DNA from: Sulfurimonas sp.
Lineage (GTDB): Bacteria > Campylobacterota > Campylobacteria > Campylobacterales > Sulfurimonadaceae
Reading direction: 5' to 3'
Assembly: GCA_027013295.1 (NCBI GenBank)
Contig: JALUXP010000114.1
Location: 1 to 34,846 of the forward strand
DNA length: 34,846 nucleotides
This document shows, piece after piece, positions 2,445 to 5,496 of this stretch (position 1 is its first letter; the number at the start of each line of letters is the position of its first letter). The translations under genes were made by a program, and so were the position numbers. Under the pieces are notes generated by a model. That model saw nothing but the letters and a program-made list of their open reading frames with translations. It was not told the origin of the DNA and ran no database searches.

Positions 2445-2565
2445 AAAAGAGATAGATACTAGGTCTTTTATGAAAAAACTAGAAAAATATTGCAATTTGT
2501 CATATTTTAGTAAAATACTGCACCCCTTTGGATAGAATATAGATAGAAAGATTTTAGGATAGATA
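2445..2565 (+). promoter_or_regulatory. Intergenic region upstream of the restriction-modification genes
   Basis: This 121-nt gap separates the methyltransferase from the restriction-modification operon and must hold any promoter for it. A TAGAAT hexamer at 2533-2538 is the best -10-like match. No convincing -35 box lies at the right distance, which is common in Campylobacterota. AGGAT about 9 nt before the ATG acts as a weak ribosome-binding site. I see no C-box-like dyad of the kind that binds controller proteins, and no small regulator gene fits in the gap. Confidence 0.3.
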
Positions 2566-4479
2566 ATGGCAAAGAAAGAAGTGAAAACAGATTTGTGGGT
2601 ATATGAGCTTTTAAAAAAAGCTACTATTGATTTAGAACCTCAAGGTAGTACAATCTTAGAAATTGACAATGCTTTAAAAACTGCTTCAAAAAGCAAAACT
2701 AAAAATGTTGGTTTTCCCGAATATGTAGGAGTTGTAAAAGATTTTATATTAGTAATTGAAAATAAAGCAGATATCGCAAAACATATCAAATTAGATGATA
2801 AAGGTCTTGTGAGTACAACCGTAAAAGATACAAAAAATTATGCAATAAATGGTGCTTTATTTTATGCTAAACATTTAGCAAAAAACACAAGCTATAAAAA
2901 GATTATAGCTTTTGGCATAAGTGGTGATGAAAAAAAACATCGCATAAGCCCTCTTTATATTGATGAAACAGAATATTATAGAGAGTTGCCAGATGTAGAA
3001 TCTTTTATATCTTTTAATGAACAAAATATACAAGAATATTATATAAGAGAAATTTTAAAAGAAGAGACAGACAAAGACAAAGAATTATCTATAATTTTAA
3101 AAGATGCCTCTGACCTTCATGAAGATTTACGAAATTATGGAAATCTAAAAGATATAGATAAGCCTTTAATAGTATCTGGTATATTGTTAGCACTCCGTGA
3201 AGCAGAGTATAAAAATTTTTCTTTAGATGATTTAACAGCAGATGAGATTAATACTGATGGAGAAAAAATATTTAAAGCCATAGAATCAAATCTAAAAAGA
3301 TCAAAAGTTGCTCCAGAAGTTAAAAGAGATAAAATTATCTCTCAATTTTCTATTATTAAAGATACTCAAATTTTAAATGAGATGAACCAAACTCTTAAAA
3401 AAACACCACTTAAGCACTTTACCCAATTCTTATATGATAAGATTTACAAGAGTATAAAATATTCAAATTCATCCGAAGATTATCTAGGACGCTTTTACGG
3501 AGAGTTTATGTCTTATAGTGGTGGAGATGGACAAACCTTAGGTATAGTTTTAACCCCAAGACATATTACAGATCTATTTTGTGATTTAGTAGATATACAA
3601 GCTAATGATATAGTTTTAGACCCATGTGCTGGAACAGCAGGATTTTTGATAGCTTCTATGCATCATATGTTAAAACAAACCAATGATAACAACAGACAAA
3701 AAAATATAAAACAGAAACAACTTCATGGGTTGGAGTTGCAGCCTTATATGTTTACTATTGCTACAACCAATATGATTTTAAGAGGTGATGGCAAAAGCAA
3801 TCTCATTAATGAAGATTTTTTAAAGCAAGATCCTTTTAAATTGCAGTTAAAAGAAGCCAATATTGGCATGATGAATCCACCTTATTCACAAGGTTCTAAA
3901 AACAATGTAGATCTATATGAGATATCTTTTATAGAACATCTGTTAAATTCTATAACTGAGGGTGGCAAAGTTATTGTGATAGTCCCCCAATCAACAATGA
4001 CAGGTAAAACAAAAGAAGAACAATCTACCAAAGCCAATATTCTTAAGCATCACACATTAGAAGGTGTTGTCACATTAAACAAAGACACATTTTATGGTGT
4101 GGGTGTTATGCCTTGTATCGCTGTATTTACTGCAGGAGAAGCACATCCAAAAGAGAAGAAAAGTAAATTTATTGACTTTAGAGATGATGGATATAAAGTT
4201 GCTCCACATATTGGATTGATAGAAACAGAACAAGCAAAAGATAAAAAAGCTCATTTACTAGATGTTTGGTTTGATAGAATCGAGAGTGAAACTAAATTTT
4301 GCATAAAAACCACTATTGGTGCAGATGATGAGTGGTTGCATAGTTTTTACTACTTTAATGATGAAATTCCAATGGATGAAGAGTTTGAAAAAACGATAGC
4401 AGATTATTTAACTTTTGAATTTGCCATGATTATGCAAGATAGAGAGTATCTATTTGAGGATAATGAAGATGAAGCTTAA
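2566..4479 (+). CDS. BcgI-like restriction-modification subunit A: fused PD-(D/E)xK nuclease and N6-adenine methylase
   Basis: The 637-residue protein begins with a nuclease-like domain: Asp59 and the Glu65-Asn-Lys67 pair in DFILVIENK form a PD-(D/E)xK core, as in HsdR N-termini and BcgI A. A helical linker at about residues 150-320 follows. The methylase domain resembles HsdM: a motif X-like segment LGIVLTPRHITDLF starts near 325, motif I is DPCAGTAGF at 352-360, HGLEL lies near 387, and motif IV NPPY is at 437-440, the adenine-N6 class. A plain HsdM lacks the nuclease motif, so a Type IIB/IIG enzyme cleaving and modifying with one polypeptide is the better reading. Known BcgI A is about 72 kDa, close to this protein. 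The partner specificity gene overlaps its stop. Nuclease assignment by motif is inference. Confidence 0.8.
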   Translation: MAKKEVKTDLWVYELLKKATIDLEPQGSTILEIDNALKTASKSKTKNVGFPEYVGVVKDFILVIENKADIAKHIKLDDKGLVSTTVKDTKNYAINGALFYAKHLAKNTSYKKIIAFGISGDEKKHRISPLYIDETEYYRELPDVESFISFNEQNIQEYYIREILKEETDKDKELSIILKDASDLHEDLRNYGNLKDIDKPLIVSGILLALREAEYKNFSLDDLTADEINTDGEKIFKAIESNLKRSKVAPEVKRDKIISQFSIIKDTQILNEMNQTLKKTPLKHFTQFLYDKIYKSIKYSNSSEDYLGRFYGEFMSYSGGDGQTLGIVLTPRHITDLFCDLVDIQANDIVLDPCAGTAGFLIASMHHMLKQTNDNNRQKNIKQKQLHGLELQPYMFTIATTNMILRGDGKSNLINEDFLKQDPFKLQLKEANIGMMNPPYSQGSKNNVDLYEISFIEHLLNSITEGGKVIVIVPQSTMTGKTKEEQSTKANILKHHTLEGVVTLNKDTFYGVGVMPCIAVFTAGEAHPKEKKSKFIDFRDDGYKVAPHIGLIETEQAKDKKAHLLDVWFDRIESETKFCIKTTIGADDEWLHSFYYFNDEIPMDEEFEKTIADYLTFEFAMIMQDREYLFEDNEDEA

Positions 4480-5494
4480 TGATAGGGAGTGGAAAGAATT
4501 TTTTTTAGCCAAACTTGATTTTCAAAATTATCATGGAAAACGATTGATTAAAAATCATAGAATATACGGTAAAACTCCATTATTGACAGCAAAAGAGAAC
4601 AACAACGGTATTGCAGATTTTGTTAATAATAAAGAGATGAAAAAATTTAAAAATATTATTTCTGTTGATATGTTTGGTAATAGTTTTTATCATGATTATC
4701 TATGTTGTGGTGATGATAATATCTATTTTTTTGAAAACAATAATCTAACTAAATATCATAAATTGTTTATAACAACTATGATCAACCAAAATAAAAGAAA
4801 ATTTTCTTATGCAAAACAATTTAGACAGTCTAATGCAAATAGAACAATATTGATGTTACCAATTAAAAAGAATCAACCAGACTATCTATCTATGGAAAAT
4901 TATATAAAATCTATTGTTGAAAAAAAAGAGAAAAAGTATAAAGACTATATTGTTAAAATTCTAAAAAAACTTGAGTATAAAACAATAAAATCTTTAAAAG
5001 ATAAAAATTGGAAAGAGTTTTTTGTATCTGATATTTTTGATACTGTTCAAAGGGGGAAACGACTTACAAAAACAAAACAAATTAAGGGAGATATACCTTA
5101 TGTGTCTTCAACTGCTTTAAATAATGGAGTAGATAATTTTATAGGAAATGCCACTAATGTCAGAGTGTTTAATGGTTGTGTAACTATTGCAAATAGTGGA
5201 AGTGTTGGGGCTAGTTTTTATCATCCATATAGTTTTGTGGCAAGTGATCATGTAACACATTTACAACAAGAACATATGAGTGAGTATGTATATCTGTTTA
5301 TAACAACTTTAACAAATAGATTTAAACAAAAATATAATTTTAATAGAGAGATAAATGACAAAAGAGTATCAAAAGAAAAGATTATATTACCAGTAGATGA
5401 AAAAAGTAAGCCAGATTATGAGTATATGGAACAATATATGAAGAATATAAAGTATAAAAAAATTTCTCAATACATGAAGAAAAATCGAACCTAA
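4469..5494 (+). CDS. Specificity subunit (HsdS/BcgI B-like) with two target-recognition repeats
   Basis: I place the start at ATG 4469: GAGGA lies 8 nt upstream, whereas the longer frame opens with TTG at 4454 without a usable site. This gives 341 residues and an 11-nt overlap with subunit A, implying translational coupling. The protein is an internal duplication of about 173 residues. Each half opens with WKEFF (Trp8 and Trp181), has a GKRL or RGKRL segment, a central variable recognition domain with SFYHDY or SFYHPY, then LFITT and LP(I/V)..PDY..ME.Y. Lysine-rich helices near 150-175 and at the C-terminus are the spacer helices. Two half-domains predict a bipartite target. Base composition is very AT-rich (for example 11 G/C in the 60 bases from 4741). 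No separate hsdR is seen. Confidence 0.82.
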   Translation: MKLNDREWKEFFLAKLDFQNYHGKRLIKNHRIYGKTPLLTAKENNNGIADFVNNKEMKKFKNIISVDMFGNSFYHDYLCCGDDNIYFFENNNLTKYHKLFITTMINQNKRKFSYAKQFRQSNANRTILMLPIKKNQPDYLSMENYIKSIVEKKEKKYKDYIVKILKKLEYKTIKSLKDKNWKEFFVSDIFDTVQRGKRLTKTKQIKGDIPYVSSTALNNGVDNFIGNATNVRVFNGCVTIANSGSVGASFYHPYSFVASDHVTHLQQEHMSEYVYLFITTLTNRFKQKYNFNREINDKRVSKEKIILPVDEKSKPDYEYMEQYMKNIKYKKISQYMKKNRT

Positions 5495-5496
5495 AG

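Follow-up and report, generated by a model that had tools for sequence, protein, structure and literature searches.

A probable BcgI-like Type IIB restriction–modification gene pair in Sulfurimonas, acquired by horizontal transfer

The window analysed here is a stretch of 34,846 nucleotides from a draft genome of Sulfurimonas sp. (contig JALUXP010000114.1 of assembly GCA_027013295.1). Near its start, two overlapping genes occupy a cassette of ~3 kb between a gene for a TehB-like methyltransferase and recO (the latter with a RecO_N_2 match), which are convergent. The features of the cassette are collected in Table 1. The first gene encodes a subunit, termed RM (or A), in which nuclease and methylase are combined; its reading frame in the window's ORF listing is intact (637 aa), and an AGGA ribosome-binding site precedes its ATG at 2566. 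The second encodes the specificity subunit, S (or B), and its first 11 nt overlap the end of the RM gene. The ORF listing runs the S frame from a TTG at 4454 (346 aa), but the best start is the ATG at 4469, which is preceded by a GAGG ribosome-binding site (4456–4459) and gives an intact protein of exactly 341 aa. The positions and sizes (about 637 and 341 residues) given in a first-pass annotation of the sequence thus stand, and neither frame is broken.

Table 1. Features of the cassette (positions in the window; RM, restriction and modification subunit; S, specificity subunit; TRD, target-recognition domain)
Feature	Position	Strand	Evidence
Inserted RM cassette, between TehB-like methyltransferase gene and recO	2445..5496	.	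GC content, empty sites, DNA homology of relatives
Upstream leader/promoter region, common to L003 and L004	2484..2565	+	BLASTN homology begins at 2484
RM (A) subunit gene	2566..4479	+	PADLOC PDLC03602, Pfam N6_Mtase, AlphaFold model
Nuclease active-site segment	2659..2766	+	E32 2659-2661, P51-E52 2716-2721, D59 2740-2742, E65 2758-2760, K67 2764-2766
Methylase motifs, D352-P353-C-A-G-T-A-G-F360 (AdoMet-binding) to N437-P-P-Y440 (catalytic)	3619..3885	+	Sequence
S (B) specificity subunit gene, 341 aa, two TRD + helix repeats	4469..5494	+	PADLOC, Pfam, model
TRD1 + helix, first half of S, variable	4472..4978	+	Identity to L003/L004, gap in DNA homology
TRD2 + helix, second half of S, conserved	4979..5494	+	Identity to L003/L004 and to phi-42 S

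The order of domains in RM is an N-terminal nuclease of the PD-(D/E)xK kind, a helical connector and a gamma-type N6-adenine methylase, all in one chain, as in BcgI-like enzymes. Residues 3–635 match the PADLOC profile REase_MTase_IIG (PDLC03602, 637 positions) with E 7.9e-172, and S matches Specificity_II (PDLC03591, 341 positions) with E 9.5e-43, both far beyond chance; the lengths of these two profiles are those of BcgI A and B. Both of the methylase motifs named in the first-pass annotation, DPCAGTAGF (352–360) and NPPY (437–440), are present, and D352 and N437–Y440 are kept in all close relatives aligned. The chain ends shortly past the methylase, with a tail helix in the AlphaFold model, whose quality is low at the C-terminal end (537–637). 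Pfam reports the methylase as the sole domain of the protein (N6_Mtase, E 1.7e-35). Because Pfam alone fails to recognize the nuclease, the plain annotation ‘N-6 DNA methylase’, which such genes carry in plasmid records, would miss it; an early warning that a methylase-type label hides the nuclease was therefore apt.

Residues 1–140 of the RM model form an alpha/beta nuclease-type core, with pLDDT ~90 over residues 50–140. Helices 2–18 and 31–37 are followed by strands 53–57 and 60–67, helices at 86–107, and strands 112–120 and 125–132; the second strand bears E65 and K67. The nuclease fold anticipated for residues 1–150 is thus what the model displays, and the structure of BsaXI aligns with it from residue 1 onward. 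Pfam, given residues 1–155 alone, returned no significant family, its best match being a sub-threshold Hjc (E 0.08). We drew 54 relatives, mostly 55–90% identical, from the GTDB genome collection and counted conservation over the 44 aligned sequences that cover the active-site region. E32, P51, E52, E65 and K67 are identical in all 44, and position 59 is aspartate in 43. Among more distant Campylobacterales relatives, position 59 is E, N or Q in several, position 52 is D (a true P-D) in three, and E32 is less conserved than in the close set. The active site had at first been read as Asp59/Glu65/Lys67. Glu65 and Lys67 hold, but Asp59 as the catalytic acid is rejected: because D59 varies while P51–E52 aligns with P-D, we take the predicted nuclease motif to be P51-E52-x12-E65-x-K67 rather than D59-x5-E65-x-K67, with E32 as the putative helix acid. 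For BcgI, work on an E53 mutant is reported, a position that would agree with E52 here; a search of the accessible literature for E53A in BcgI brought up nothing.

S is built of two repeats, as had been proposed. Pfam finds two Methylase_S stretches (E 1.1e-28), its first and second halves share 32% identity across 160 aa (E 3e-29), a true internal repeat, and the model (pLDDT 91) consists of two globular domains with a long helix after each. It matches the structures of Type I HsdS subunits and the S chain of BsaXI (8w0p_C). It is again characteristic of BcgI-like systems that a separate S subunit, with two TRDs and helical connectors, is encoded beside RM.

We conclude, with a probability of roughly 0.93, that the pair is a two-gene, BcgI-like Type IIB restriction–modification system. 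The family is widespread, and this member of it is ordinary. The proposed resemblance to BcgI is upheld by the full-length PADLOC match of RM, by end-to-end identities of 46% (RM) and 40% (S) to the pair of phage phi-42 described below, and by the fold matches to BsaXI. The methylase half of RM has its best structure matches among Type I HsdM proteins, and this, with the N6_Mtase domain being all that Pfam sees, lends something to the view that the genes are a Type I-like HsdM and HsdS pair whose HsdR is elsewhere or lost and whose N-terminal extension is no nuclease. Two stronger N6_Mtase genes, possibly for Type I HsdM, on other contigs could be cited in the same sense. Against it, relatives from different phyla all keep the nuclease residues, the N-terminal domain is predicted to have a nuclease-type core, and in the draft assembly (134 contigs) the SWI2_SNF2 profile gave no hit and HSDR_N none above its cut-off. 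No hsdR lies beside the pair, either, the neighbors being the TehB-like methyltransferase gene and recO; an adjacent hsdR had been named beforehand as grounds for abandoning the BcgI-like reading. Because no HsdR was found on the contigs of this draft, assignment to Type I (HsdRMS) is rejected, and we consider the Type I-like pair exceedingly improbable. The BcgI-like assignment, by comparison, calls for no separate translocating HsdR.

Four further N6_Mtase genes occur in the assembly (loci L002/L093 on contig G000:C39, L094 on G000:C20, L096 on C23 and L097/L100 on C62). In the C62 protein (1149 aa) a weak HSDR_N match precedes the methylase, and this protein may be a single-chain RM enzyme.

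Among the closest described systems is Sau42I, published as a BcgI-like system, from the Staphylococcus aureus phage phi-42 (X94423, ‘restriction modification system’). It consists of two overlapping ORFs in the same order (639 and 337 aa), its RM has the same set of active-site residues, and both of its proteins have the same best PADLOC profiles as the present pair. Another staphylococcal phage record names a homologous pair bcgIA and bcgIB. Unlike the pair described here, the phi-42 pair is phage-borne. TRD2 of its S is 54% identical to TRD2 here but TRD1 only 33%, which makes a difference in one half-site or both probable. BcgI itself, the Type IIB archetype, from Heyndrickxia (Bacillus) coagulans, has a like RM and S plan by its published description (PMC4081073, PMC4027205), and recognizes CGA N6 TGC. 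BsaXI, a Type IIB enzyme of the (RM)2S class with cryo-EM structures (8W0P, 8W2P and 8W2Q), has the same order of nuclease, connector and methylase. VIA-align superimposes the RM model (residues 1–571) on 8w2p_A over 479 residues with Z 23.5 and an rmsd of 23.7, presumably this large because the domains are placed differently. The nuclease residues of BsaXI, E73/D90/E105/K107, have been proven by mutation (PMC11997821), and E32/P51-E52/E65/K67 here follow the same four-residue plan. The RM chain of BsaXI contains knob and paddle insertions and is 916 aa long, whereas that described here has 637 aa; it does not belong to the BsaXI subgroup, which is marked by the paddle insertion and an RM chain of >800 aa.

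The first-pass annotation drew attention to the Campylobacterota background. A suggestion that such a host is remarkable finds no support, and the phylum is not new for the class, because BcgI-like systems, including Hpy99XXII (TCAN6TRG), were documented in Helicobacter pylori in 2013 (PMC3936762); these have the same class, gene plan and phylum as the present pair. A search of the accessible literature found no link between Type IIB enzymes and Sulfurimonas. In the H. pylori systems S has no usable start codon, and a poly-G tract can switch it off (PMC3936762); S here, by contrast, begins at a start codon that a ribosome-binding site precedes. Phase variation in the style of H. pylori was considered and set aside: the longest homopolymers are 8 A/T and 5 G/C, and we claim none because a long G/C tract is absent.

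The cassette has ~28% GC, against 35% in its flanks, and S alone 25%. The site is empty in four congeners (G012, G006, G016 and G036), in which the flanking genes lie 2–35 bp apart, and no RM gene was found at E < 1e-20 in 36 congeners sampled. Among 399 Campylobacterales genomes, 12 others have the RM gene at >=54% identity; in one of these a stop breaks the gene. Two relatives, L003 and L004 (89–90% identical), share DNA homology with the cassette by BLASTN from 2484 to ~4500 and again from ~4865 to ~5480. Between about 4503 and 4863 there is none, and it stops altogether at 5478–5484. These relatives sit in other contexts, with no DNA homology to the flanks of the window's cassette. Their TRD1s are 35–40% identical to TRD1 here, and their TRD2s 72% (L003) and 78% (L004). 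The pair thus lies in a transferred cassette in which TRD1 has been exchanged. It was horizontally acquired by this Campylobacterota genome, in the usual pattern of horizontal transfer with the half-site exchange known for S subunits; the movement of domains in S genes has been described (PMC3077401).

The junction of the TehB-like gene and recO varies among congeners (loci L061–L073), which besides empty sites have one ordinary gene there or a short set of genes. Those named by eye are a thiol peroxidase, a DsbD-like protein, a SelO/YdiU-like protein, an endonuclease III-like protein and a chemotaxis receptor.

How the enzyme would work can be sketched from its characterized relatives, from which we take stoichiometry, methylation, double cutting and a part in defense against phages. 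By analogy with BcgI, two RM subunits and one S subunit would form the enzyme (an A2B protomer), each TRD reading one half-site of a bipartite sequence that is probably asymmetric. In host DNA the gamma-type methylase domain would make m6A, at one adenine per half-site. In unmethylated DNA the N-terminal PE-x12-ExK nuclease would cut on both sides of the site, excising a short fragment, usually after two sites had been bridged, with Mg2+ and AdoMet and with no ATP-driven translocation. The BcgI model for these steps is that of PMC4081073 and PMC4027205. Sequence does not reveal cutting geometry, and some relatives, intact-looking BcgI-like systems as in H. pylori (PMC3936762), are silent in their hosts, so that one may ask whether an RM and S enzyme of this anatomy cuts on one side only, or is an orphan m6A methylase whose nuclease is inactive. 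The two-chain RM and S members described in PMC4081073 and PMC11997821 cut on both sides, and here the active-site residues and both reading frames are intact; we judge either variant very unlikely, and keep to a BcgI-like enzyme that would cut twice.

The sequence recognized is, at slightly better than even odds, different from that of every characterized Type IIB enzyme, because no TRD in the loci compared exceeds 57% identity to TRD1. If so, the system would combine a standard chassis with a new specificity. Over its whole length S comes closest to L018:2252-3283, from a Gastranaerophilales metagenome-assembled genome, with identities of 57% (TRD1) and 63% (TRD2); its source phylum differs from that of the closest RM subunits. 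Because it is the closest over the whole length, both may recognize the same sequence.

Relatives vary in how specificity is packaged. In four Bacteroidales relatives, three TRD repeats rather than two follow RM, as one ORF of 531 aa (L038:2439-4034) or else split over two or three ORFs (L019:7922-9530, L020:7850-9521 and L022:7922-9526); three TRDs for an enzyme with two half-sites could allow specificity switching. Fusions of RM and S in one chain belong to the same RM family (59–73% identity). Some carry two TRDs in ~1000 aa (L025:5992-9084, L027:5977-8982, L029:6001-9003 and L050:6001-9072), and others one TRD in ~815–830 aa (L015:6001-8490, L030:6001-8445 and L041:2794-5274). For the one-TRD fusions, the expected target is a symmetric site.

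The case puts right the bare label of ‘N-6 DNA methylase’ that is usual for such genes. Because TRD2 is retained and TRD1 exchanged among its close relatives, half-sites are easily compared, and in practical terms the pair may provide a new tag-cutting enzyme. For the family, which spans Campylobacterota, Clostridia, Bacteroidota and staphylococcal phages, it adds one intact and horizontally acquired Type IIB system.
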